Source: Sulfurovum sp. (GTDB taxonomy: Bacteria; Campylobacterota; Campylobacteria; Campylobacterales; Sulfurovaceae). From it: 64,000 nucleotides of DNA. Below, piece by piece: positions 7,261 to 26,325 of the stretch (the stretch's first letter is position 1; every line of letters starts with the position of its first letter). The position numbers were made by a program, and so were the translations under genes. The notes beneath the pieces were generated by a model that worked only from the letters and a program-made list of their open reading frames with translations, was not told where the DNA came from and did no database searches. The stretch spans positions 806,502-870,501 of the forward strand of contig JAIZOF010000001.1 in NCBI GenBank assembly GCA_020525365.1, written 5' to 3'.

Positions 7261-7929
7261 ATGGCAAATGAGAATAAGTCAGTATGGGTTAGTATATCAT
7301 TTTGGCGCCGTTCTGCAGCGTGGGTGACAGGATTTGCATCTATTTTGTTGATATGGTTGACATTTGATACGCTAGGTCAAATTAGTATGGGGACAGACGA
7401 GGATCTTAAAAGTGGGATAACCAAAAGGGTACCAGGTCCTACGGTAATCAATTATCATATTGATTACAAGATGAGCGAAAAAAGAGGGCATGAGGTACCA
7501 GTAATTGGAGAAAAAGAACTCTTTTTTGGTAAAGAATGGAGTAAGGAGGAAGCAGCAAAATTATTACATCTTGGTAAATTGACCTCTCAGGCAAAGAACT
7601 GTATGAATTGTCATACACTCCTAGGTAATGGTGCTTATTATGCTCCTGATCTTACCAAAGCGTGGCTTGATCCTGCATGGCAGAATGGTGGACCACTTCA
7701 GGGAATAACAGGAAAAAATACAGTAGAGGAAGCGATGGCAGAATTTCTACAACATCCATCTCGATACCCTACACATGCAAGAATGATGCCAAATCTTGGT
7801 ATTACAGCAGAAGAAGCAAAAGGGTTAGTAGCATTTCTCAAACATATGAGTAGTATTGATACTAATGGTTTCCCAAGAAACTTCTCACAATCTGCTGACA
7901 GAATCAAAGGAGGTACACATGCTCACTAG
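7261..7929 (+). CDS. norC: Nitric oxide reductase cytochrome c subunit NorC
   Basis: NorC is the membrane-anchored cytochrome c that passes electrons to NorB for reduction of NO to N2O. This 222-residue protein has one N-terminal membrane anchor (about residues 18-38), a single heme c site CMNCH (Cys114, Cys117, His118), and the NorC hallmark GAYYAPDLT just after it. NorC proteins are usually around 150 residues; the extra length here lies between anchor and heme site and toward the C-terminus. The ribosome binding site AAAAAGGAGG precedes the ATG. The gene overlaps norB by 11 nt, which indicates coupled translation. Confidence 0.93.
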   Translation: MANENKSVWVSISFWRRSAAWVTGFASILLIWLTFDTLGQISMGTDEDLKSGITKRVPGPTVINYHIDYKMSEKRGHEVPVIGEKELFFGKEWSKEEAAKLLHLGKLTSQAKNCMNCHTLLGNGAYYAPDLTKAWLDPAWQNGGPLQGITGKNTVEEAMAEFLQHPSRYPTHARMMPNLGITAEEAKGLVAFLKHMSSIDTNGFPRNFSQSADRIKGGTHAH

Positions 7930-9352
7930 TATCAAAACAAATGAATTTGCTGGAAATGAATCAAAAAAACTGGCAATGATGTATTTTAGGGTAGCGATTA
8001 TACTCTTTGGCGCACAGTTGCTAATGGGACTTATTGCTGCAATTCAGTTTCTTGCACCAGGGTTCCTCTTTGAGCTTTTTGATTTCTCGGTAGCCAGAAT
8101 GGTACACATCAATGCATTAGTTGTCTGGATGCTTTATGCAATGATAGGGTCAGTTTATTATATGCTATCTGATGAAACAGGGATAGAAACGGTTCATATT
8201 GGTATAGGAAAGCTTGCTTTTTGGGTATTGACTGCTGCAGTTACGGTTGTTGTACTTGTTTACATTTTTGTTCAAGTAGGTTCAGGAACAGAAGCAACTA
8301 TTTGGTTAATTAATGAAGGTAGAGAGTATCTTGAAGCACCTAGATGGGCCGATATTGGTATTGTTGTGGTGGTTCTTACCTTCTATTGGAATGTATTTGC
8401 TACCTACATGAAAGGTCAAAAAACTGGAATTATGACTGTCATGGTTGCTAACTTGATGGCACTGGCGGGTCTCTATCTTGCAGGAATGTTCTTTACAGAC
8501 AATATCTCTATGGACCAGTACTGGTGGTGGTGGGTTATTCATCTTTGGGTTGAAGCAACTTGGGAAGTTTTTGTTGGTACACTTGCAGCTTATGCACTAA
8601 TCAAGATTATTGATGCAAAGCGTGAGATTGTTGAGATGTGGCTTTGGATTGAAGTGTTGATGTTGTTTGGATCAGGTATTCTTGGTTTAGGTCACCACTA
8701 TTTTTGGATTGGTACACCTGAATATTGGTGGGAGATTGGTGCACTCTTCTCTGCACTTGAGCCAGTACCACTAGTAGCGATGTTTGTCCATGTTCTCTAT
8801 GATTGGGGTAAAGAGCAAGGAATCGCTAAAGCAGAAGGAAAGCCAGGTTCAGTAATGAATAATGGTCCTGCAATGGCATGGATTGTTACTAATGCATTTG
8901 GTAACTTCCTTGGGGCAGGTATTTGGGGATTTTTCCATACCCTACCACAGGTAAATATTTATACACACGGAACACAATTTACAGCAGCACATGGACACTT
9001 GGCATTCTTTGGAGCCTATGCAACTATTCTTATTGGGATGATGTATATGGGTATTCAGGGTGCATACGGGATTGAGAGAATGAAGGCAACATTCAAGTCT
9101 AAAATGGCAATCTCTTTAATTACTTTTGGAGTACTTGGAATGACAGTAGCATTGACGATTGCTGGATATGAACAGGTACTGGTAGAAAGAGCAGATCTTG
9201 GAGCTAGCTGGAATGCATTTTTTACAGCACAGAATCTACCTTGGTATGTTCAAGCACAGCTTTGGAGAACGATTATGGGTGTGCTTACTTTTGTTGGGTT
9301 TGTCTATTTAGTATGGGATTTGCTAACAATTGGTAAATCGAAAGCAGATTAG
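7919..9352 (+). CDS. norB: Nitric oxide reductase catalytic subunit NorB (cNOR)
   Basis: NorB is the heme b / heme b3-FeB subunit of cNOR in the cytoplasmic membrane. The start at 7919 is chosen because AAAGGAGG lies at the right distance; an in-frame ATG at 7856 would add 21 polar residues inside norC. The 477-residue protein has about 12 helices. The FeB ligand region HLWVEATWE with its two glutamates, the HH pair in GLGHHYFW, and HGTQFTAAHGHLAFFG for the heme ligands are all present, so the enzyme looks intact. It follows norC with overlap, the standard order. Confidence 0.95.
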   Translation: MLTSIKTNEFAGNESKKLAMMYFRVAIILFGAQLLMGLIAAIQFLAPGFLFELFDFSVARMVHINALVVWMLYAMIGSVYYMLSDETGIETVHIGIGKLAFWVLTAAVTVVVLVYIFVQVGSGTEATIWLINEGREYLEAPRWADIGIVVVVLTFYWNVFATYMKGQKTGIMTVMVANLMALAGLYLAGMFFTDNISMDQYWWWWVIHLWVEATWEVFVGTLAAYALIKIIDAKREIVEMWLWIEVLMLFGSGILGLGHHYFWIGTPEYWWEIGALFSALEPVPLVAMFVHVLYDWGKEQGIAKAEGKPGSVMNNGPAMAWIVTNAFGNFLGAGIWGFFHTLPQVNIYTHGTQFTAAHGHLAFFGAYATILIGMMYMGIQGAYGIERMKATFKSKMAISLITFGVLGMTVALTIAGYEQVLVERADLGASWNAFFTAQNLPWYVQAQLWRTIMGVLTFVGFVYLVWDLLTIGKSKAD

Positions 9353-9789: not shown

Positions 9790-11532
9790 ATGAAATGGGA
9801 TAAACTTCTAGGTTTTGTTACGGTAACAAGTTTTGCTGCAACGATGGTAATGGCAGGCACATCAAATATGGATTTTGCAAAAACATACGAGAAAGAGTGC
9901 CAAGGATGTCATGGGCCAATTCATCAGGGTGGCGTTGGATCAGATCTTAGGCCTGCAGCACTGAAGAAAAAAAGTAGAGAATTTCTTGCAGAAACAATTC
10001 TTAACGGCAGAGAGAATACGGCGATGCCAGCATGGAATCATAAGTTTTCAAAAGATGATGCGACAGGTATGATTGATTGGCTGATGGATTGGAAAAATAC
10101 AGTAGAGTTGACACTGGATTTAGATGAGGTACAAAAGACATGGACCAAACTTGCCGATGTAACTAAACTGGCAAAAAAATATCCTGTAAATAAAGATGGA
10201 AAGCTTGTCTATAAAGGGGCAGAAGTAAAAAACGTTAAAGATATTACTTTTGCAACAGAGAGGGATGCCTCTTTAGTTGATTTTATAGATTCTACAAATG
10301 GAAAAGTACTCTCACGCCATAAGGCGGGTTTTGCAGTACATGTAACTGTAACCAATAAAAATGAGCCACGATATGCTTATTCCATCTCTCGTTCGGGAAG
10401 ATTAACCATGTTTGATATTGGAGCACCTGGACAACCCGCAGTAGCTTCTGTACAGGTGGGACAGGAGTCTAGGGGGCTTGCAGTCTCACCTAATGGTAAA
10501 TATATTATTGCAGGAAATTATAATCCAGGTGGTGCAGTGCTTTGTGATGCACACACACTTAAGCCACTTAAAGCTTATGATACTAGTCGTGTCATTGATC
10601 CCGATGGACAGATTGGACCATCACGTGTAGCAGGAATTGCAGATACACCGTATGGACCATACTTTGCCGTAGCATTGAAAGATGGCGGACATACATATAT
10701 TATTGATTATTCAAAAGAGGGATTCCCTATTGTTGGAGATATACCAAATATTGGAAAGATTCTACATGACTGTTTTCTTAATGAGAACAAAGGAGAAGAT
10801 TTTGGTAGATATTTTCAAATTGCTTCTCAGGGATCAGACCTTATGGGTATTGTTGACTTTAAAACCAAATCTTTGGCAGCAAAAGTTTATACAGGTAAAA
10901 AATCTAAGCCACACCCTGGACAAGGATCAAGCTGGTTTAATAAAAAAATGGGAAAACAGCTTAATGCAACAAACTCTATGAACTTTGGTTCGGTGGTTAT
11001 TTGGAGTTCACCAGGATGGAAAGTAGTTAAAAAGATTAAAACTTCTGGTGGTGGACTTTTTGTTGGAACATCAGAACATACACCATGGATATGGTCTGAT
11101 TGTGTACTTGCTAAACCTGCAAAATATAATGAAGTACACCTGATTAACAAAGAGACACTTAAGACAGATAGAATTATTAAAGTTGGAAAGAAAAAAGGTC
11201 AGTTAATTGATGCTAAAACGAAAAAAATTCTTCAAGAGTGGGATGCAACCCAGCACCAAAAAATAGCTGTAAATGAAAAAGTATTTGGCAAAGAGAAGAT
11301 TATGCCTATACCTAACAAGGTAGGTCCTGCTGTAAAAAATCCAGTACAGCCAAGACTGCTACATGCAGAACCTGCCAATCATGGTAAATGGACTATGATT
11401 TCTGAGTGGACAACAGGAAGAATTGGTATTTATGATTCCAAAACAGGTAAATTTATCAAGTATATCGAGAACTTAACAACACCAACATTTACCTACTCTA
11501 TAGAACACAGACAACACATACCTGGTGCATAA
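9790..11532 (+). CDS. nirS: Cytochrome cd1 nitrite reductase NirS
   Basis: NirS is the periplasmic enzyme that reduces nitrite to NO using heme c and heme d1. The 580-residue product has a signal peptide (cleavage near residues 22-24), one heme c site CQGCH (Cys37, Cys40, His41) in an N-terminal cytochrome domain, and a long C-terminal beta-propeller of the cytochrome D1 type. Length fits the family. A ribosome binding site (AAAAGGAGAAAG) precedes the ATG. No Crp/Fnr box is seen immediately upstream; it may be read from the norCB promoter or its own unseen one. Genes for heme d1 synthesis lie downstream. Confidence 0.96.
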   Translation: MKWDKLLGFVTVTSFAATMVMAGTSNMDFAKTYEKECQGCHGPIHQGGVGSDLRPAALKKKSREFLAETILNGRENTAMPAWNHKFSKDDATGMIDWLMDWKNTVELTLDLDEVQKTWTKLADVTKLAKKYPVNKDGKLVYKGAEVKNVKDITFATERDASLVDFIDSTNGKVLSRHKAGFAVHVTVTNKNEPRYAYSISRSGRLTMFDIGAPGQPAVASVQVGQESRGLAVSPNGKYIIAGNYNPGGAVLCDAHTLKPLKAYDTSRVIDPDGQIGPSRVAGIADTPYGPYFAVALKDGGHTYIIDYSKEGFPIVGDIPNIGKILHDCFLNENKGEDFGRYFQIASQGSDLMGIVDFKTKSLAAKVYTGKKSKPHPGQGSSWFNKKMGKQLNATNSMNFGSVVIWSSPGWKVVKKIKTSGGGLFVGTSEHTPWIWSDCVLAKPAKYNEVHLINKETLKTDRIIKVGKKKGQLIDAKTKKILQEWDATQHQKIAVNEKVFGKEKIMPIPNKVGPAVKNPVQPRLLHAEPANHGKWTMISEWTTGRIGIYDSKTGKFIKYIENLTTPTFTYSIEHRQHIPGA

Positions 11533-11729: not shown

Positions 11730-12827
11730 ATGAAATTATTACTGTCTATTTTGGTATGGGGAAGCATGCTCTCCTTGGTATTAAATGCAAAAGAGAAATA
11801 TTTTGTTGTAGAGCGAGACAGTGAATCTGTTGCAATAATAGAAGATGGTTTAACAAAGCGATATATGAAACATATGCACAATATGAACCATGGTATTATT
11901 AAATTTGATGGCAGTGATGGATACCTTATCAGTCGTGATGGGTATGTGGTGAAGTTTGATCCTAGAACAGAGAAAAAAGAGACAGAATACAAGACCTCAA
12001 AGTCTGCTATTGGATTTGTTATAGGTAAGCATTATGTTGCTGTTGCCAATTATGATGATAAATCTGTTGATATTCTTACACGTAATCTCAAGCCTATCAA
12101 AAAGATTAAGACGGGTTCGAAGAATGTTGGTATCAAGATATATAAAGATAAGCTCATCTTTGCGCAGATGGACAATGACAAGGTGAGTGTCTATGAAGAT
12201 ATTAACCATGAGAAAGGAATACCAAAGTTCAGGAAGCTTAAAGAGTTCAGTGTCGGTAAGATGCCTTTTGATGCGATGATCAAGGAAAATACCTATATTG
12301 TCGGGTTCTTTTTGACCAAAGGATTTGGTGTAATCGATTTAAATAGTATGCAATACAGTCAGATTGATGTAACGACTGAAGGAAACAAGCCTGTACTAAA
12401 GGTACCCCATTTTGGATTCTGGTCAATTAGTGATAAAAAAACTTTTATTCCTGCAGTAGGTGACAATAAAGTGATGGTTTATGATAAAGATTTTAAATTT
12501 ATTAAAAATATTAAAACAAAAGGATTGCCTGTTTTTACCTCTTTAAGTCCAGATAAAAAATATATTGCTGTGACATTTTCAGGAAAAGATTTTCCTACCA
12601 TAGAGATTGTAGATACCAACACACTTAAAGTGATTAAGTCTTTTACCTTTCCTGGTAAAGTACTACATGTGAGATGGTCCAAGGAGTATCCTGACCTTTA
12701 TGTCTCTGTTAATGATGCCAATCAAGTTAGTGTAATCAATACACAGAATTGGTTCTTGCAAAGAGATATTTTTCAGGTTAAACACCCTTCGGGTATTTTT
12801 CTCTACGAAATGGATAATAAGAAATAG
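11730..12827 (+). CDS. nirF: Heme d1 biosynthesis protein NirF
   Basis: NirF is a periplasmic D1-propeller protein needed for late steps of heme d1 synthesis. This 365-residue product has a signal peptide (about residues 1-20) and then a propeller resembling the C-terminal domain of NirS but without any CXXCH, which separates NirF from NirS and NirN. Repeated blades are seen (for example EIVDTNTLKVIKSF and VSVINTQNW). It follows nirS in the same direction after the terminator-like hairpin. It is convergent with the pentaheme cytochrome gene; the stop codons lie 4 nt apart with no terminator between. Confidence 0.8.
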   Translation: MKLLLSILVWGSMLSLVLNAKEKYFVVERDSESVAIIEDGLTKRYMKHMHNMNHGIIKFDGSDGYLISRDGYVVKFDPRTEKKETEYKTSKSAIGFVIGKHYVAVANYDDKSVDILTRNLKPIKKIKTGSKNVGIKIYKDKLIFAQMDNDKVSVYEDINHEKGIPKFRKLKEFSVGKMPFDAMIKENTYIVGFFLTKGFGVIDLNSMQYSQIDVTTEGNKPVLKVPHFGFWSISDKKTFIPAVGDNKVMVYDKDFKFIKNIKTKGLPVFTSLSPDKKYIAVTFSGKDFPTIEIVDTNTLKVIKSFTFPGKVLHVRWSKEYPDLYVSVNDANQVSVINTQNWFLQRDIFQVKHPSGIFLYEMDNKK

Positions 12828-12831
12828 AAGA

Positions 12832-13962
12832 TCAGATAGCAATACGTTTTTTGTTTAAAATAATAATTTTTTTTACCTTGGTATCAGTAATCCTCAGCTG
12901 TTTAGCTGCCTTTGGATTGACGAGATAGTATCCAAATTCAATAATGAGATGGTCACCTTTTTTTAAGGGTGTATTATAGTGTATTTTACGGGTTTCGTGT
13001 GCCTTGATGGTAGTATCTTTAAGAACCTCGGTTGCCAGCCACGGCATAGAGGGCTTGCCTGCCGTTCCAATGATTCGCATAAAAGAGTGTATTGGTAAAG
13101 TAAGGAGCTTGTCATTGCGTTCGATACTGACTCTGAGTTGGCTCATTCTTAGCGGTTGGGGAAAAAGAGTATGTGTTGCTTTATTTTTGATATACACATC
13201 AAATCCTGATGGTTGTTTATTTATAGAAAATTGAATATATCGTGAGAGGTGTTTTGGTTTTTGGTGTATGGAAATACCGTGGAAAGCATGCTTTCTATTT
13301 TGCTTCTGATTAGCTAAACTTCCTTTTTTTTGTGGCATATGACAACTAATACATGTTTCTTTAGAGTCTTTCTGTTTGACCTCAAGATCACAAACAGTAA
13401 ATCCTTTATTGTTTTGTTTGTGATCATGGCACCCTAAGCAGATTCTACCATTGTAGTAAATTTCATTACCATAGTCTATATCATGATAGGGGGAACCACT
13501 CTTTTTTTTAAAGATTCCCAGAAATGAACGTTCCTCTTTAAAGACAACTTTTTCCCCTTTACGTTTGTGGTCCATAGAAAAGAAATATTTTTTCTTACGA
13601 GTGTAAATATTTTTATTAGCTTTAGCATGCTCTTCGATACGCTCTATGCGGTGACAGGTTTGACATGATATGGGTTCATCGATTTCAGCATGGTTGGGTG
13701 TGGGTAGCATGCCTTTGGTAACCGAATGATCTGAGGGTGTATGACATGAAGCACATTTATAGTTTCTTTTTACTTTGGCAGGATGCCTCTTCCATACTGC
13801 GTTATGTGTAGGGTCACCAAAGAGAGAGGAATGGCTATGCATAGAGTGTTGATATTCTGCATAAATTAGAGGATGACAGTTCTTACAAGTAGTATTTTCT
13901 AGTGCTATTATGTTACTTTGTGTAATCCATAACAGCAGTATAAAAAAGAGTATTTGTCGCAT
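12832..13962 (-). CDS. Periplasmic pentaheme cytochrome c
   Basis: A multiheme c-type cytochrome with five CXXCH sites: CKNCH, CASCH, CQTCH, CLGCH and CISCH, all in the N-terminal 60%, followed by a beta-rich C-terminal region. An ATG exists at 13998, but a TACAAT hexamer (13997-14002), centred exactly 32 nt from the Crp/Fnr box at 14025, would put the transcript start inside that longer reading, so I choose 13962. From there a clean signal peptide (MRQILFFILLLW) is predicted, giving 376 residues. Substrate is unknown; the heme spacing resembles c554/octaheme-type reductase relatives rather than NrfA. Co-regulation points to nitrogen-oxide metabolism. Confidence 0.75.
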   Translation of the reverse strand: MRQILFFILLLWITQSNIIALENTTCKNCHPLIYAEYQHSMHSHSSLFGDPTHNAVWKRHPAKVKRNYKCASCHTPSDHSVTKGMLPTPNHAEIDEPISCQTCHRIERIEEHAKANKNIYTRKKKYFFSMDHKRKGEKVVFKEERSFLGIFKKKSGSPYHDIDYGNEIYYNGRICLGCHDHKQNNKGFTVCDLEVKQKDSKETCISCHMPQKKGSLANQKQNRKHAFHGISIHQKPKHLSRYIQFSINKQPSGFDVYIKNKATHTLFPQPLRMSQLRVSIERNDKLLTLPIHSFMRIIGTAGKPSMPWLATEVLKDTTIKAHETRKIHYNTPLKKGDHLIIEFGYYLVNPKAAKQLRITDTKVKKIIILNKKRIAI

Positions 13963-14024
13963 TATTACAAAAAGCCTTTTTGTATATGAATAGTGCATTG
14001 TAGTTAAACAAAAGAGTATCTCTC

Positions 14025-14214: not shown

Positions 14215-14790
14215 ATGACTTTTGAAACTTCAGTAGAAGTGTTGAAATTTCATTGGGTGGTCTATACTATCTATGCAACACTTATCATAGCAATTATTGC
14301 ATGGTTTTCCTATAATTTAACACGTAAAGAGAAGGCAAAACCGATTGTGCGTATCCCGTTTTATGGGTTTATTGCATTTTTAGTTGCAGGAGGTGTAGGT
14401 CATCATATTTTCACTTATAATACGATGCCATGGGTGTCAGAAGATATTATGCGTCATGAGATTTCACCTGACAAGGTCTTTAAAATTGAAATTGCCAAAC
14501 ATCAGTTCAAGCTACCTGAAAAGATGGAAATCATCAAAGGAGATAAGATACTTTTTGATGCATACAGTAGTGATTTGGTTTATGGTTTTGGACTTTTTAG
14601 ACAAGATGGCAGTATGGTAGCTCAAATGCAGGTAAACCCAGGAAGTCGCAACGATCTTCTGTGGACTTTTAATGAGTGTGGCATATTTGATGTTAGGTCA
14701 ACAGAGTATGCTGGACCTAAAGGGAATAGTATGTTTGTAAAAAAAGCAGTTGTTGTGACAGGATGTAATACGAAAGGAGAAAAATCATGA
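14215..14790 (+). CDS. Oxidase subunit II-like protein without CuA ligands (gNOR-type partner)
   Basis: A 191-residue protein with two N-terminal membrane helices (about 15-34 and 46-65) and a cupredoxin domain like cytochrome oxidase subunit II. The CuA motif C-S-E-Y-C-G-x-x-H-x-x-M aligns with S162-T-E-Y-A-G-P-K-G-N-S-M173: both cysteines and the histidine are replaced, and the upstream histidine position is Tyr123. It therefore cannot bind a normal CuA centre. The gene overlaps the subunit I gene by 4 nt and follows a Crp/Fnr box with a perfect -10. Together they fit the gNOR family of heme-copper NO reductases. The family name is from general knowledge; the missing ligands are seen directly. 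Confidence 0.8.
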   Translation: MTFETSVEVLKFHWVVYTIYATLIIAIIAWFSYNLTRKEKAKPIVRIPFYGFIAFLVAGGVGHHIFTYNTMPWVSEDIMRHEISPDKVFKIEIAKHQFKLPEKMEIIKGDKILFDAYSSDLVYGFGLFRQDGSMVAQMQVNPGSRNDLLWTFNECGIFDVRSTEYAGPKGNSMFVKKAVVVTGCNTKGEKS

Positions 14791-16460
14791 GTATTGTAAA
14801 GAATCTAGTGGAAGGAACAGGTTTTAATGCTTCTTCATTGACTGCTTTGCAGAAAGTTACACTTCGTGCGGTAGTGATGTCTTTTCTTTTCTATGGACTA
14901 GCATCCATTGAAGGCACATTGATGCGGGCTGCATTGGTAAATCCTATGATCCCTCCGATTAATAGTTTTCCTGATCATTATTTTTCAATTATGACAGTAC
15001 ACCCTATTATTGGGATTTTTGGTTCTACTTATCAGTTGGTTTTTGCTGCATTTATGTTTTTGATTCCCTATTTGACAAAAAAGCCACTCTATAGTATAGG
15101 ATTGGCAAATTTTGTTTGGATTATGATTACCATTGGTTCAGCTTTAGCATGGATTGCTGCATTTATTTGGCACTATGCACCACTCTATACACTTTACTGG
15201 CCGCTACCAGCAGATGTTAGCCAGTTTAGCAGAATAGGTGGGATTGTCTTTATTATTGGGATTGCATTGATTATGGTCGGTACATTGGGGTTTATCTACA
15301 ATATTTATGCGACAATCTTTGCAAAAGTAGGTATTCATACCAACAAAACAACCAAAGAGCTACTGATTTCTGGTTTTGGTATTGATGGTTTGATGAATCT
15401 AATTTATAAATTGATGGGGAAGACTCCATATACCAAAGAGCCAGCATTGTCCCTGCCAGTTGTTGCCATTTTTAGAGGAACAGTCGATACATTTCTTGAT
15501 GCACTTGTAATTCTTGGTGCTGGTATTCTTGTTCTTGTCTATCTGCTTGCAGATACAGCAGGTTTGAGCTGGGATGTACATGCAGTAGATGCACTACTTT
15601 ATAAAAATTTCTTCTGGTGGGGACTTGACCTTGTGGCAGATGGATTGGTGTTGATTTATGTAGCAGGCTCATGGTATCTGTTGGCAACACTAATAACAGG
15701 ACAGAAGCTTTTTATGGAGAATGTTGCACGTGCAGCACTTCTCTTGGAGCTTTTTGTTTCTTGGATGGTTTGGTCGCATCACTTGCTTGCTGATCAGGGA
15801 CAACCTGAAATGATGAAACTTATCTCTGGTGAGATGGTTACGGCATTTGAGTTACTCACTCAAGGGCTAGCACTCTTTATTACGCTTGTTACACTTTGGA
15901 AAGCTAGACCACTAAAAATGACTATGGAACTTAAGTATTTACTAGGAGGGCTTCTTGGTTTTGGTCTTGCGGTTCCAGCAGGGATTCTTCAAGCAGATAT
16001 GGGACTAAACAGAGTATTGCATAATACCCAATGGATTATTGGTGCGCATGTACATATTGCTCTCCTTACAGGTCTCTATATGACACTTTATAGTGTTGTC
16101 TATGTACTTTGGCCTCTATTAACGAATAATACAAAGCTCTATTCCATGAAGCTTGCCAATGCACACTTTTGGCTCCATCTTATTGGAAGTATCGGTATGG
16201 GAGCCTTTATGGGAATGGCAGGTCTTGAAGGGATGCTAAGGCGTCACTTTTATATGGATGGAGAGTTTCAAACCTTCATGATTCTTGCGGCTATCTGTGC
16301 GACTATGATGGTTACGGCATGGATACTTTTTATGATTAATATTGTTATGTCTATTGGGCTGAAGGGACTTATTGGTATCTTTATTCCTGCAAAAGATAAT
16401 ACAGCAACATTTGGTATTGACCCACAGCCTTCGGTTGTAACCCAACTAAAAAAAGACTAA
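14787..16460 (+). CDS. Heme-copper oxidase superfamily subunit I, gNOR-type NO reductase
   Basis: A 557-residue membrane protein with about 12-14 helices. Heme ligands are in place: His72 in TVHPIIGIFG, His421 and His423 in IIGAHVHIAL. The CuB pair His331-His332 (WSHHLLADQGQP) is present. At the helix VI CuB histidine position (tryptophan plus four) the sequence is WWGLDLVADG, so Asp281 replaces the histidine and Asp285 stands where oxidases have the cross-linked tyrosine and cNOR has a glutamate. That active site excludes a canonical oxygen reductase and matches the unusual sites described for gNOR-type enzymes. Probable reaction: NO to N2O. The electron donor is unclear because subunit II lacks CuA. 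Confidence 0.8.
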   Translation: MSIVKNLVEGTGFNASSLTALQKVTLRAVVMSFLFYGLASIEGTLMRAALVNPMIPPINSFPDHYFSIMTVHPIIGIFGSTYQLVFAAFMFLIPYLTKKPLYSIGLANFVWIMITIGSALAWIAAFIWHYAPLYTLYWPLPADVSQFSRIGGIVFIIGIALIMVGTLGFIYNIYATIFAKVGIHTNKTTKELLISGFGIDGLMNLIYKLMGKTPYTKEPALSLPVVAIFRGTVDTFLDALVILGAGILVLVYLLADTAGLSWDVHAVDALLYKNFFWWGLDLVADGLVLIYVAGSWYLLATLITGQKLFMENVARAALLLELFVSWMVWSHHLLADQGQPEMMKLISGEMVTAFELLTQGLALFITLVTLWKARPLKMTMELKYLLGGLLGFGLAVPAGILQADMGLNRVLHNTQWIIGAHVHIALLTGLYMTLYSVVYVLWPLLTNNTKLYSMKLANAHFWLHLIGSIGMGAFMGMAGLEGMLRRHFYMDGEFQTFMILAAICATMMVTAWILFMINIVMSIGLKGLIGIFIPAKDNTATFGIDPQPSVVTQLKKD

Positions 16461-16552: not shown

Positions 16553-17158
16553 GTGCTAAATATGCTGAGGGTTATCGATGAGATACAACATGTAGGGCTC
16601 TATAGTCTTATACTTCAGGATATTCAGAAGATTACAGGCAAAGAGAAGCCAAGTGCCAAAGAGGTTGAAGAGGCACTACAGAAACATCCTTCTCTTCTGC
16701 GTGATTATATGCAGACAACGGTTGAATATAACCTAAGTAATATTCATCTTAAAGATATCAATCTTGATCACATTGCTGCTGATTGTCATGTAAAAGCAAA
16801 AAAAATTAATGAAAACTTAGCCATATTACGTAAACTAGAAAAGTATACACTCGATTTCGAACAGAGTTCTACGCTGGTATTAATTTTTTCAGTAGAGTTT
16901 CTTGTACTTTTTTCTGTGCAATATTTTATTGTGCTTCTTAATCTTAAGATGTGGCAGTGGTATATTTACGGTCTTTTTGCACTTTCTATTGTTGTGGCAT
17001 GGATTTATGCTAAAAAAGTACGCAAAAAGTATGAAAATGGTAATACAGAATATGAAAGACTCTACAAAGAGACTCTTAAACTCATTGAGTTACTTGAAGA
17101 GAAAGGAGAACTTTGCAAAGCAGACCTCTATATAGGAAAATCAGATGAACACATCTAA
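16553..17158 (+). CDS. Membrane protein with coiled-coil ends, unknown
   Basis: A 201-residue protein read from GTG at 16553 with AAAGGAG seven nt earlier. Residues 1-105 are soluble and helical, two membrane segments follow (about 106-130 and 136-155), and the charged C-terminal helix (KKVRKKYENGNTEYERLYKE) can form a coiled coil. No family is recognised. It is the first of five tightly spaced unknown genes between the gNOR-type operon and nirC, and it overlaps the next gene by 14 nt, so it is probably co-transcribed. Confidence 0.6.
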   Translation: MLNMLRVIDEIQHVGLYSLILQDIQKITGKEKPSAKEVEEALQKHPSLLRDYMQTTVEYNLSNIHLKDINLDHIAADCHVKAKKINENLAILRKLEKYTLDFEQSSTLVLIFSVEFLVLFSVQYFIVLLNLKMWQWYIYGLFALSIVVAWIYAKKVRKKYENGNTEYERLYKETLKLIELLEEKGELCKADLYIGKSDEHI

Positions 17159-17654
17159 ACCTGTGACCATATGTTACCGTTGGGATAAAGAAAATTTAAA
17201 AAAAGCATTTGTACATGCCTACGAATATCAATTTAAACATTCAGTTAGACGCTATATAGGATGGCTATTTATTGCTATGGTACAGTTTGGAGTTGTTGTA
17301 GTACTCAAAGGAGGATCTGTCGGTCTGCTATTGTTTTCTACAATTTTGATACTCTATTGGTATTTTATCAAGAGGTGGTTAATATATAGACGCACTCTTA
17401 CATCGTTTAAACACTCAGAATTTAGGGATATGCCTATTGCACTTGAGGCAAATAAAGATGGAATAAAGCAGCATGGTACAGTGATACCATGGAAGGAGAT
17501 ACAAAGAGTAATATTCTTAGACGATGCAATTTTGCTTTACAATAAAGATAAAACATTTTATATTCCACATAGTGCTTTCTCTTCCTTGGAGGAAAAAAGT
17601 AGGTTTAAAAGTTTTGCTAAAGAAAAAGAGAGACTAGTCAATGTTCAAGGTTAG
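17145..17654 (+). CDS. YcxB-like membrane protein
   Basis: A 169-residue protein with two central membrane segments (about 38-58 and 62-79) and a C-terminal domain (IALEANKDGIKQHG, then IPWKEIQRVIFLDDAILLY and FYIPHSAF) that matches the pattern of the YcxB C-terminal domain. That family has no known biochemical role. It overlaps both neighbours by 14 nt, showing a compact operon. The family call is by motif recall only. Confidence 0.6.
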   Translation: MNTSKPVTICYRWDKENLKKAFVHAYEYQFKHSVRRYIGWLFIAMVQFGVVVVLKGGSVGLLLFSTILILYWYFIKRWLIYRRTLTSFKHSEFRDMPIALEANKDGIKQHGTVIPWKEIQRVIFLDDAILLYNKDKTFYIPHSAFSSLEEKSRFKSFAKEKERLVNVQG

Positions 17655-18405: not shown

Positions 18406-18433
18406 CTTTATTGTCAATATAAAGGTGCTAATA

Positions 18434-18775
18434 ATGCATACACAAAGTATATCAATACTTTTTTTAATACTTTTTATCATCCTCTCATCAGCTTTTGGAG
18501 TAGAAGGGAAAAAAGTTTTTGAAACTTATTGCTGGGGATGTCATCATCAAACAGCAATGGCATTTGGTCCGCCACTATCCCAGATTGCAACAAAAAGAAC
18601 ACCAGAAGAGATACAGGCGATGATTGCTAACCCTGAAGCAGTTTCTAAAATATTTGGATATCAGCGTAATGCTATGCCTCCATTTCAGCTTAAACCAGAA
18701 GAGCTCAAAGCAATTACTGCTTATATTCTTTCTTTCGGAGTGGTTCAAGATATCAATACAGGCAAGAAAAAATAA
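18434..18775 (+). CDS. nirC: Monoheme cytochrome c, NirC-like
   Basis: A 113-residue periplasmic cytochrome with a signal peptide (about 1-22) and one heme site CWGCH followed by MAFGPPLSQIA; a methionine (NAMPPF) late in the protein can be the sixth ligand. NirC-type cytochromes donate electrons for NirS or in heme d1 synthesis. A GTG at 18425 would add three residues, but AAAGG (18421-18425) is correctly spaced for ATG 18434. The stop overlaps the nirJ start by 1 nt, and the run nirC-nirJ-nirE is one operon. Confidence 0.75.
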   Translation: MHTQSISILFLILFIILSSAFGVEGKKVFETYCWGCHHQTAMAFGPPLSQIATKRTPEEIQAMIANPEAVSKIFGYQRNAMPPFQLKPEELKAITAYILSFGVVQDINTGKKK

Positions 18776-22141: not shown

Positions 22142-22888
22142 ATAAGAAAAATAATTATTATTACAGCAATTAGTATAAATGTATTTGCACAATCTGCACA
22201 AGATGTAGTAAAAAAATCTTTTGAAGCTATTAGTGGCTATGGAGGAAGTGAGACTATAAGTGAAATGGTATTAAGAAATGCACAAGGAGTGGAAAATAAA
22301 CGGAAATTAAAAGTACTTAGAAAAGAAGGAAGTCATGGAGATAGGTCATTTATAGAATTTTTATATCCTAATGATATTAAAGGTACAAAACTGCTAAGTT
22401 TTGAAGTAATAGGAAAAGATGATAAACAGTGGCTATATTTACCGGCACTGAAACGTATAAAGCGTATTAGTTCTCGCAATAAATCGGGTTCATTTGCTGC
22501 AAGCGAATTTTCTTATGAAGATATCTCTTCTGTAAATTATCAAAATTATACATATAGTGGTGAAGCAGAGATAGATACTAAAAATGGAAAGTCCTATTTT
22601 AAAATTGTACGTAAACCTATTGATAAATATAGTGGATATTCAAAACAAATAATATGGATAGACAAAAAAGATTATTTAATTCGTTTTGGAGAATATTATG
22701 ATAGACATGGCAAACTCTTAAAAAAAGTACATTTTTCTAAATATAAAAAAACAGAAGGAGTTTGGCGTATATTTGAAATTGATATAGAAAATATACAAAA
22801 CCATAAAAGCTCTAAACTTATTTGGAAATCAGACAAAATTCATATACCTATAAAAAATACAGATGTCTCTAAAAGAGTATTATATTGA
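22142..22888 (+). CDS. Outer-membrane lipoprotein-sorting-like protein (LolA-like fold), possible ATA start
   Basis: A periplasmic protein that accompanies RND/MMPL exporters; domain pattern includes DKQWLYLPALKRIKRISS, the GSFAASEFSYEDI stretch and a C-terminal half that resembles LolA/LolB-like barrels. The first ATG is at 22265, but the frame upstream encodes a proper signal peptide (RKIIIITAISINVFAQSAQ) that starts at an ATA codon (22142) exactly six nt after AGGAG. From there the protein has 248 residues. No ATG, GTG or TTG is available in this frame at that place. Either ATA initiates or the start codon is mutated. Downstream gene overlaps by 4 nt. Confidence 0.7.
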   Translation: MRKIIIITAISINVFAQSAQDVVKKSFEAISGYGGSETISEMVLRNAQGVENKRKLKVLRKEGSHGDRSFIEFLYPNDIKGTKLLSFEVIGKDDKQWLYLPALKRIKRISSRNKSGSFAASEFSYEDISSVNYQNYTYSGEAEIDTKNGKSYFKIVRKPIDKYSGYSKQIIWIDKKDYLIRFGEYYDRHGKLLKKVHFSKYKKTEGVWRIFEIDIENIQNHKSSKLIWKSDKIHIPIKNTDVSKRVLY

Positions 22889-24054
22889 AATGGTTATTTG
22901 GTATTGTTGTAAGTTTGCAACTATGTTTTGCAAATGAGCATATAGAATTTAGAGGAGATATTGGTATAAAAACTATCTCTTACAATGATAATAAAAATGA
23001 TTTATTAAGCGTAGGTAAAAGTATAGTTACATTCAAAAAAGAGTTATTTGAATTACATACGGAAGTAGATTTTTTCTATAGTCAAAAGTATAAAGATAAA
23101 AAAGAAGTATATTTTAATGAATTATATATGACTTGGCATGATGATATGTATGCTATTAAAATAGGAAAACAACTTACTTTTTGGGGCGAACTTGAAGGAT
23201 ATAATATTACGGATGTAATCAACCCTAAAAATAGTATGTTGGATATTTTTGATAAAAGTGAAAAAAAAGGTGTTTGGGCATTGATGGTTAATGCTTTTGA
23301 AGAGAATAAAAATGTTGAATTAGGGATAAAAGTACATGAAGAAGATAATAAATATGTAGATGATACAAGTTCCTATTATTTTTTACCTTTGGCTTATACA
23401 AGTAATTTACAAATTAAAAACAGGTATAGCCCTACGGTATATCTAAAATATAGTTTTTTAACTGATGAAAGCATAGAGAGTGAAAGTAGCATTATTATAC
23501 AAAAAGGTTATGACAATAAACGATATTTTGCACCAATTAGTGAGCATAAAATGGCACAATTTGCTTACAATGCAAACAAAGTTATGTTCTTGAGTAATAT
23601 TTTATATCAAGATATTTTTTTTAAATTTGAAGCTGCATATACTGATGTACTTGATGAATCTAAAATGAGCGATTATAGACAATTGGGTGTAGGTTTTGAA
23701 AAAGGTTTTTATGATATTAATGGAATAGATATTACTTTGTATACAGAATACTATTATTATGATTATCTAAATAATGATAAACCTAAGTATGTAGATATCA
23801 GTGAATTGTATGATAATGATATCTTTATGGCATTAAGATTTACTTTGAATGATACAAGAGATAGCGAACTTAAGTTAGGCTTTTTGAAAGATATTAAAAA
23901 TGGTGAAAATATTACAAAAGTTGAAATAAAAAGTAGATTGGCAGATACTATGGTTTTTATTGCTGAAGGTTTACATTTTTCCAAACAGTTTAAAACATAT
24001 TCAAAGTTAACAAACCATACTCGTATGATTTTTGGTATAAAGTATTTTTTTTAA
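22885..24054 (+). CDS. DUF1302-like outer-membrane beta-barrel protein
   Basis: A 389-residue protein with a signal peptide (MKWLFGIVVSLQLCFA) and alternating beta-strand pattern ending in an aromatic residue (KYFF), as in outer-membrane barrels. The stretch LTFWGELEGYNITDVINPKN is typical of the DUF1302 family that is encoded with lipoprotein-sorting-like and RND proteins. The start is TTG at 22885, overlapping the preceding stop (TTGA). It probably forms the outer-membrane part of the same export or lipid-transport system. Confidence 0.7.
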   Translation: MKWLFGIVVSLQLCFANEHIEFRGDIGIKTISYNDNKNDLLSVGKSIVTFKKELFELHTEVDFFYSQKYKDKKEVYFNELYMTWHDDMYAIKIGKQLTFWGELEGYNITDVINPKNSMLDIFDKSEKKGVWALMVNAFEENKNVELGIKVHEEDNKYVDDTSSYYFLPLAYTSNLQIKNRYSPTVYLKYSFLTDESIESESSIIIQKGYDNKRYFAPISEHKMAQFAYNANKVMFLSNILYQDIFFKFEAAYTDVLDESKMSDYRQLGVGFEKGFYDINGIDITLYTEYYYYDYLNNDKPKYVDISELYDNDIFMALRFTLNDTRDSELKLGFLKDIKNGENITKVEIKSRLADTMVFIAEGLHFSKQFKTYSKLTNHTRMIFGIKYFF

Positions 24055-24066
24055 GGAGATATGTGG

Positions 24067-26325
24067 ATGATACACTATATAAATTTTTTAGATAGATATA
24101 AAACAAAGCTTTTTATAATTATTACTATTATCGTACTCTTTTTTAGCTACTGGATAAAAGACATAGCCTTTGAAGGTAGTTATAGAATATGGTTTAGTCC
24201 TGATGCTACTATTATGAAAAATTATGATAATTTTAGAGATACTTTTAGTACGGATGATACCTTTATCGTGGCATTTCGAGATGAAAAAGGTATTTTTACT
24301 GATAAGGCTACAGATATTGTTTTAAAATTAACTGAAGAGATAGCAAATATTGATGGGGTACGAAAAGTAGATAGTCTTAGCAATTATCAATATATAAGTG
24401 CAATAGAAGATGAATTAAATGTTGAAGACTTTATTCATGAGGATGATAAAGGAGATTTAACACATAAAAAAGAGATAGCATTAAAAGATAAGCTTATTTT
24501 AAATCATGCCATTTCAAGAGATGGTAAAACTACTACGCTCTCCGTAAAACTTAGTACTGAAACTAGTTCAGGAGAAGAAGTAAATATTTATGTAATGGAT
24601 GCATTAGAGCAAATAGCACATACCTATGAACAGAAGTACGGATATAAACTTTATATTTCAGGTATGCCTGCTGTGACAGCATCATTAGTGACTGTAGCAG
24701 TACATGATGCAATCTATATTATGCCTTTGGCAGTCATTATTGTTATTATATTTTTATGGATTTTATTTAGAGATATAGTTGGAGTTTTTGTACCAGCTAT
24801 AATCATACTGTATACCTTTCTCATTGTATTAGGTATGCAGTTTTTAATGGGGTATAAACTCAATAATTTTACAGTGAATATTCCTGCCTTTATTGCGGCT
24901 ATTGCTATTGCAGATTCTCTTCATTTACTTTTAGCTTGGCGATATTATAAAAGTAAAAAAACTGTCAATAAAGATGCTGTGTGTCAAGCAGTAAAAAATA
25001 ATTTTTTACCCATTACTTTGACCTCATTTACTACTGCAACGGGATTTGCTTCCCTTATGACAAGTGATATTGTGCCTATAGCTACATTAGGGTATGCCAT
25101 TACAGTAGGAGCTATTTTGGCATTTGTATTGAGTGTCACATTAGCACCTGCATTGCTACTTTATATGAAAGATGATTATATACCTAAAAGAATATTTTTT
25201 ATTGATTTTACGAAACTACAGGGATATGGTAAATTTATTACAAAACATGATAAAAAAATTGTAGGTTTTTTTATGATACTAATATTGGTGTTGGGCTATG
25301 GATTAAAATATGTGAATGTAGATAATAATAGTGTAGAATATTTTGATAAAAGTACAGTAGTACGTTCAGGGAGTGATTTTGTAGAAAAGTATGTAACAGG
25401 TGCAATGACCTATGAAATTATTATAGATTCCAAAAAGAAAGATGGAATCAAAAATATAGCATTTTTAAAAAAAGTATTGGCTTTTGAGAAGACACTAAAA
25501 GATAAATATCCCAATGTCACTTTTAGTACTTCTATAAAAGATATTATACAACGTATGCATACAGTTTTAAGTGATACGCATGAGACTACATTGCCTACAG
25601 ATAGCAATCTTATAGCACAATATCTTTTACTCTACTCTATGAGTGTTCCACAAGGGATGAGTATCAATGATCAGATCGATATGAGTGAACAGTTTTTACG
25701 TATGACCATTAATAGTGAGACACAAACAACTTCCAAAGATGTACAAATGATAGAGTGGATTAAACAATGGTGGAAAACACATAGTCATTATAGTGCCCAA
25801 GTAGAGGGCGAAACAGCGATATTTTCCTATATGCAAGAGCATGTGATTCATACCTTATTGGTCTCTATACTGTTCACACTTATTATCATTATACTTGCCA
25901 TGTCACTAATATTTAAAAAATTAAAAATGTTATGGATTTTTGTTTTACCCAATATTGCACCTATTATATTAGTTGCAGGAGTAATGGGCTATTTAGGTAT
26001 CAGTATAGATATTGGTGTGGTGATTTCTGCTTCGGTTATTTTAGGTATTGCTGTGGATGATACGATACACTTTTTTAGTAAATATTTTCAAACAAGAAAA
26101 ATGATGCCTTTTGAAGAGAGTATAGACTATATTATTACACATAGTGGTAATGCAATGATTTTAACTACCATGATATTATCTTTTACCTTTCTTATTTTTG
26201 CTGTGAGTAGCTTTATACCTAATAACCACTTCTCTTTTGTGACTGTTATTGCATTAAATTTAGCACTATTATTAGATTTAGTATTATTGCCAGCACTTTT
26301 AAGTCTATTTTATAAAAAAGCTTAA
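24067..26325 (+). CDS. RND-superfamily exporter, MMPL/HAE type
   Basis: A proton-driven transporter with two repeats of one helix, a large periplasmic loop and five more helices, giving about 12 membrane segments. The motif GIAVDDTIHFFSKY in the second repeat and AIAIADSLHLLLAW in the first are characteristic. Starting at 24067 it has 752 residues; the ATG at 24061 is only 2 nt from the AAGGAG site, whereas 24067 has the usual 8 nt. It forms an operon with the lipoprotein-sorting-like and DUF1302-like genes. The substrate may be a lipid or hydrophobic compound; that is inference. The stop overlaps the convergent nirDL stop by 4 nt. Confidence 0.85.
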   Translation: MIHYINFLDRYKTKLFIIITIIVLFFSYWIKDIAFEGSYRIWFSPDATIMKNYDNFRDTFSTDDTFIVAFRDEKGIFTDKATDIVLKLTEEIANIDGVRKVDSLSNYQYISAIEDELNVEDFIHEDDKGDLTHKKEIALKDKLILNHAISRDGKTTTLSVKLSTETSSGEEVNIYVMDALEQIAHTYEQKYGYKLYISGMPAVTASLVTVAVHDAIYIMPLAVIIVIIFLWILFRDIVGVFVPAIIILYTFLIVLGMQFLMGYKLNNFTVNIPAFIAAIAIADSLHLLLAWRYYKSKKTVNKDAVCQAVKNNFLPITLTSFTTATGFASLMTSDIVPIATLGYAITVGAILAFVLSVTLAPALLLYMKDDYIPKRIFFIDFTKLQGYGKFITKHDKKIVGFFMILILVLGYGLKYVNVDNNSVEYFDKSTVVRSGSDFVEKYVTGAMTYEIIIDSKKKDGIKNIAFLKKVLAFEKTLKDKYPNVTFSTSIKDIIQRMHTVLSDTHETTLPTDSNLIAQYLLLYSMSVPQGMSINDQIDMSEQFLRMTINSETQTTSKDVQMIEWIKQWWKTHSHYSAQVEGETAIFSYMQEHVIHTLLVSILFTLIIIILAMSLIFKKLKMLWIFVLPNIAPIILVAGVMGYLGISIDIGVVISASVILGIAVDDTIHFFSKYFQTRKMMPFEESIDYIITHSGNAMILTTMILSFTFLIFAVSSFIPNNHFSFVTVIALNLALLLDLVLLPALLSLFYKKA

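Follow-up and report, generated by a model that had tools for sequence, protein, structure and literature searches.

The gene pair and its surroundings

The window, i.e., the whole stretch of 64,000 nucleotides of Sulfurovum sp. DNA that was analysed, carries a complete pair of overlapping open reading frames on the plus strand, which code for a putative two-subunit heme-copper NO reductase of the gNOR type. The relevant features of the region are the following:

7261-7929, plus strand: NorC of a cNOR (CMNCH motif in the translation)
about 7919-9352, plus strand: NorB of the cNOR (HLWVE motif; tree position)
9790-11532, plus strand: NirS-type cytochrome cd1 nitrite reductase, the NO source (Cytochrom_D1, E 3.8e-58, and an N-terminal cytochrome c domain)
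11730-12827: d1-type propeller protein, upstream of the pair
12832-13998, minus strand: cytochrome with five CxxCH motifs, near the pair
14215-14790, plus strand: putative gNOR subunit II (191 aa; CuA-domain homology, profile E 7.7e-9)
14787-16460, plus strand: putative gNOR subunit I, the heme-copper catalytic subunit (557 aa; Pfam COX1, E 1.2e-52)
16553-17158, plus strand: u201, an unannotated membrane protein and near-obligate gNOR partner by linkage (helical model, pLDDT 86)
17145-17654, plus strand: u169, a YcxB-like membrane protein (PF14317, E 5.7e-10)
18425-18775: mono-heme cytochrome c, downstream of the pair

Genes for a cytochrome c, a NirJ-like protein, CobA and a Crp-type regulator lie downstream of gNOR. 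LolA-like, unannotated and MMPL-family genes (22265-26325, plus strand) separate the Crp-type regulator from NirD-like genes inside the denitrification region. Since a canonical cNOR is also encoded (7261-9352), gNOR is not the sole NO reductase of the window.

Active site of subunit I

The predicted model of subunit I retrieved heme-copper oxidases from the PDB in a fold search. The first-pass annotation had named the heme ligands His72, His421 and His423, the CuB pair His331-His332, Asp281 and Asp285 as active-site residues. This numbering is right and all seven residues are invariant in 93 Campylobacterota homologues, distant members (59-67% identity) included. In an alignment of 34 proteins, His72, His331, His332, His421 and His423 are universal. 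Position 281 is His in every row of the A, B and C families and of cNOR and qNOR, and at position 285 the oxidases carry Tyr (Ala in the C family) and cNOR and qNOR carry Glu.

The annotation had also put Asp281 at the position of the helix VI CuB/FeB histidine. This was borne out by a profile alignment to Thermus ba3, in which Asp285 falls on the cross-linked Tyr. There are one-residue indels between helix VI and His331 and, as an extra gNOR residue, just before His421, and the subunit I model is weak there (pLDDT below 50 at 272-277 and 405-423). Because of the indels and the weak model near helix VI and His421, Asp281 is placed by sequence and not by atoms. A second global alignment, with E. 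coli CyoB, shifted Asp281 by one residue; this shift was rejected, since an ungapped FWW anchor, a local alignment and the ba3 profile agree on Asp281.

The motif GLDLVAD replaces the HLWVE of cNOR and qNOR, and the FeB set of three His and one Glu is absent. The same holds for the three CuB His and the cross-linked Tyr of B-family oxygen reductases, of which Asp281 and Asp285 take two places. With cNOR and qNOR, gNOR shares a carboxylate one helical turn past the helix VI metal-ligand position (Asp285 versus their Glu), but these enzymes keep the metal His at position 281 and are distant from gNOR in the tree. The nearest solved relative by sequence, for both subunits, is Thermus ba3, a B-family oxygen reductase; its CuB His and active-site Tyr are Asp in gNOR, which has also lost CuA.

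Assignment to the gNOR class

The proposed fit to the gNOR class is supported by Asp285 at the Tyr position, by Asp281 in place of one CuB/FeB His, by the two-subunit make-up with a cupredoxin second subunit and by a separate clade in the tree (100/100). Active-site Asp at the Tyr position characterizes gNOR, which is listed for Sulfurimonas, Sulfurovum and Persephonella (PMC8756737, Table A4), and the cupredoxin second subunit is a gNOR feature as well (PMC8756737). Another source describes loss of the oxidase Tyr with gain of a carboxylate at the same position as a mark of NORs and, citing Hemp & Gennis 2008 and Sievert 2008, the replacement of one CuB/FeB His by Asp in certain NOR types (PMC3475470). 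As described, gNOR (NorGH) of the three genera (Sievert 2008; Hemp & Gennis 2008; Murali 2024) shares with the window pair both Asp residues, one at the Tyr position and one for a metal-binding His, and the cupredoxin second subunit; a quinol donor is assigned to it in one paper, and the phylum is the same. Within these descriptions we found no difference in kind from the window pair, the two being compared by description and not by sequence. The NOR families given as biochemically characterized are cNOR, qNOR, bNOR and eNOR (PMC11388526). Judged from its sequence, the window pair (14215-16460) fits gNOR, a class already named and published; neither the class nor the Asp changes nor the quinol assignment is new. 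No published assay of gNOR was found in our literature search, and to our knowledge the enzyme has never been purified.

Subunit II without CuA

Subunit II comprises two predicted transmembrane helices and a cupredoxin domain. It had been described as an oxidase-type cupredoxin frame in which all Cys and His residues of CuA are replaced, and both parts of this description proved correct. The protein matches CuA domains (phmmer E 2.6e-4; profile as listed above), and no Pfam family was found for it. H114, C149, C153 and H157 of ba3, which together with M160 are its CuA ligands, correspond to Y123, S162, A166 and G170. The axial Met is kept (M160 = M173, present in 90 of 91 homologues), so that of the two Cys, two His and one Met of a CuA-containing subunit II the Met alone remains; the Cys and His ligands of CuA are lost in 91 of 91 subunit II sequences. 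Y123 and M173, like the cNOR at 7261-9352, go beyond what the first-pass annotation had listed for this pair. It can be seen from the same alignment that Y123, S162-T-E-Y165 and G167-P168 (STEYxGP) are invariant in the 91 homologues; the subunit II copy of genome G178 carries P at position 162. The heme c motif CxxCH was found in neither subunit I nor subunit II. Two further residues of subunit II are invariant, His64 where the second transmembrane helix ends on the periplasmic side and Cys184 near the C terminus.

Electron entry

When subunit I was aligned with E. coli CyoB, Glu42 corresponded to Asp75, His64 to His98, Met46 to Met79, Leu38 to Arg71 and Ser67 to Gln101. The cluster of Arg71, Asp75, His98 and residue 101 is the ubiquinone site of bo3 (PMC10256718), and two of its four positions are matched in gNOR (Glu42, His64) while two differ (Leu38, Ser67). 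Both matching residues are invariant in 93 gNORs, and none of 23 references from the A, B and C families, cNOR and qNOR has an acid at position 42 or His at position 64. Because Glu42 and His64 align with the bo3 quinol site and are missing from the references, this pair suggests direct oxidation of quinol by gNOR at a site partly matching that of bo3. The loss of the CuA ligands from subunit II and the lack of a heme c motif also speak for a quinol donor. The bo3 quinol oxidase, a member of the A family, resembles gNOR in this acid and this His and in the lack of CuA; however, its Arg71 and Gln101 are not kept in gNOR, it retains the CuB His and Tyr, and gNOR falls outside the A family. The first-pass annotation had called electron entry an open question. 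This is true experimentally but a little too strong as worded, since gNOR (norGH) has already been classed as quinone-oxidizing and non-electrogenic (PMC8906906) and half of the bo3 quinol site is matched.

Position in the heme-copper tree

All gNOR sequences form a single clade with a support of 100/100. The clade joins the A and B families (92/88) and stands apart from cNOR/qNOR and from the C family, and NorB of the window groups with cNOR/qNOR at 100/100 in the same tree. The references of this tree came from the A, B and C families, cNOR and qNOR, with no eNOR, sNOR, nNOR, bNOR or gNOR-labelled sequence among them, and long branches are flagged in it. A search of plasmids yielded only oxygen-reductase-like relatives below 60% identity, which served as tree references, and a search of viral contigs gave no relative.

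Neighbouring genes

Subunit II adjoins subunit I in 92 of 93 gNOR loci, and u201 follows subunit I in 83 of them; seven of the ten loci without u201 end at or near contig ends. When genomes were searched by profile, u201 was detected in 18 of 20 genomes with gNOR and in 0 of 180 others, and the two gNOR genomes without it (G058, G104) are both in the most distant gNOR branch. The protein has two hydrophobic stretches, as in a two-helix membrane protein, and no heme motif was found in it. The u201 of the window matched no Pfam family above the cut-off, the scattered and weak Pfam matches of other members were dismissed as chance, and a fold search with the u201 model gave no significant match (best E 1.0). 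As a guess from linkage, u201 is possibly a third subunit or an assembly factor. Downstream, u169 is present in 72 of 93 loci, usually in fourth place within the gNOR block. The mono-heme cytochrome c neighbours gNOR in 13 of 93 loci and the five-heme cytochrome in 12 of 93; neither is a constant neighbour, and both were rejected as gNOR partners.

Distribution among genomes

Our survey comprised 200 genomes of the class, each at least 90% complete, and 20 of these carry gNOR. NirS or a NirS-like protein is encoded in 18 of the 20 gNOR genomes and in 8 of the 180 others (Fisher p 1.5e-17, relatedness ignored). Counted the other way, of the 26 genomes that encode NirS or a NirS-like protein 18 carry gNOR, versus 2 of the 174 that encode neither, relatedness again being ignored. 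For cNOR the counts are 17 of 20 versus 8 of 180, relatedness likewise being ignored, and qNOR is present in 0 of the 20 gNOR genomes. Because 17 of 20 gNOR genomes carry cNOR, gNOR is in most cases not the sole NO reductase, and its role could be a different one. One gNOR genome, G176 (L151), which already has cNOR and gNOR, additionally encodes a NorB-like protein of 464 aa with 40% identity to cNOR.

In genome G178 (99% complete; L154, L160), NirS and NosZ occur together with a complete gNOR block, and gNOR is the only COX1-family protein. We found no cNOR, qNOR or cbb3 in this genome, and a cNOR could lie in an assembly gap. G178 is a natural test of gNOR as sole NO reductase. In G058 and G193, which carry gNOR, neither NirS nor NosZ scored above the cut-off.

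Proposed mechanism and alternative readings

We favor the reading that the pair is gNOR, a two-subunit heme-copper NO reductase of a NirS denitrification cluster, which would reduce 2 NO to N2O with electrons most likely taken directly from menaquinol; we put its probability at roughly 0.78. The quinol would bind to subunit I close to where helices I and II end on the periplasmic side (Glu42, His64). From there, electrons would pass via the low-spin heme (His72/His423) to the high-spin heme (His421) and the metal next to it, which would be held by His331, His332, Asp281 and probably Asp285. This metal of the binuclear site may be iron rather than copper, because two His and two carboxylates make a better ligand set for Fe than for Cu. 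Subunit II would have lost electron carriage and been retained as a structural cupredoxin cap. A more specific version describes a three-component gNOR, with u201 as obligate subunit or maturation factor. In it, the metal centre would consist of two His and two Asp, probably with iron, and the quinol site would have evolved at the same place as in bo3 but separately from it. We offer this version tentatively and rate its prospects as somewhat worse than even.

A different electron route would start from a periplasmic cytochrome c or another soluble carrier, which would dock on the CuA-less subunit II and pass electrons straight to the low-spin heme. A mono-heme cytochrome c (18425-18775) and the five-CxxCH cytochrome (12832-13998, minus strand) are indeed encoded nearby, and the former CuA loop (STEYxGP, M173) is strongly conserved despite the loss of the copper ligands. 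However, these cytochromes accompany gNOR at 13 and 12 of 93 loci, whereas subunit II does so at 92 and u201 at 83, and such a route leaves the Glu42/His64 pair unexplained; we consider it improbable. The role of the enzyme is a separate matter, and gNOR may mainly detoxify NO or scavenge it at low levels beside a respiratory cNOR instead of serving as the chief NOR of denitrification, which would be compatible with the quinol mechanism. Its coexistence with cNOR in 17 of 20 gNOR genomes, this one included, is consistent with such a function, as are G058 and G193 with gNOR but neither NirS nor NosZ over the cut-off. The strong association with NirS argues against it, and so does G178, in which no NOR other than gNOR was found to link NirS with NosZ. 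On balance, a mainly detoxifying role appears unlikely, though it deserves consideration.

That the pair is a modified A- or B-type oxygen reductase is very hard to reconcile with the replacement of the helix VI CuB His and the Tyr, both invariant in the A/B references, by Asp in every gNOR, with the separate 100/100 clade and with a genome distribution that tracks NirS. By sequence, ba3 oxygen reductases match best in the PDB, and gNOR joins the A and B families (92/88), but we regard this reading as highly improbable. We have just as little confidence in other NO chemistry, such as NO dismutation or the reduction of another N-oxide. No chemical study of a metal site with two Asp and two His was found, and the presence of cNOR beside gNOR points to a different role. 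Against this, the dismutase-like relatives of qNOR are said to fall in the cNOR/qNOR group, from which gNOR branches away.

Among the Campylobacterota of vents and redoxclines that produce or use up N2O, gNOR is common. General models can mistake gNOR subunit I for a cytochrome oxidase, which could hide NO reduction in surveys. Taken together, the residue and genome evidence makes it possible to test where electrons enter, which metal is used and whether a third component takes part.

Subunit I has four more invariant residues, Glu321, Glu349, Glu355 and Gln359, and a nearly invariant one, Thr358, all within or next to helices VII-VIII. A proton route through these residues is possible, though gNOR is listed without a channel.
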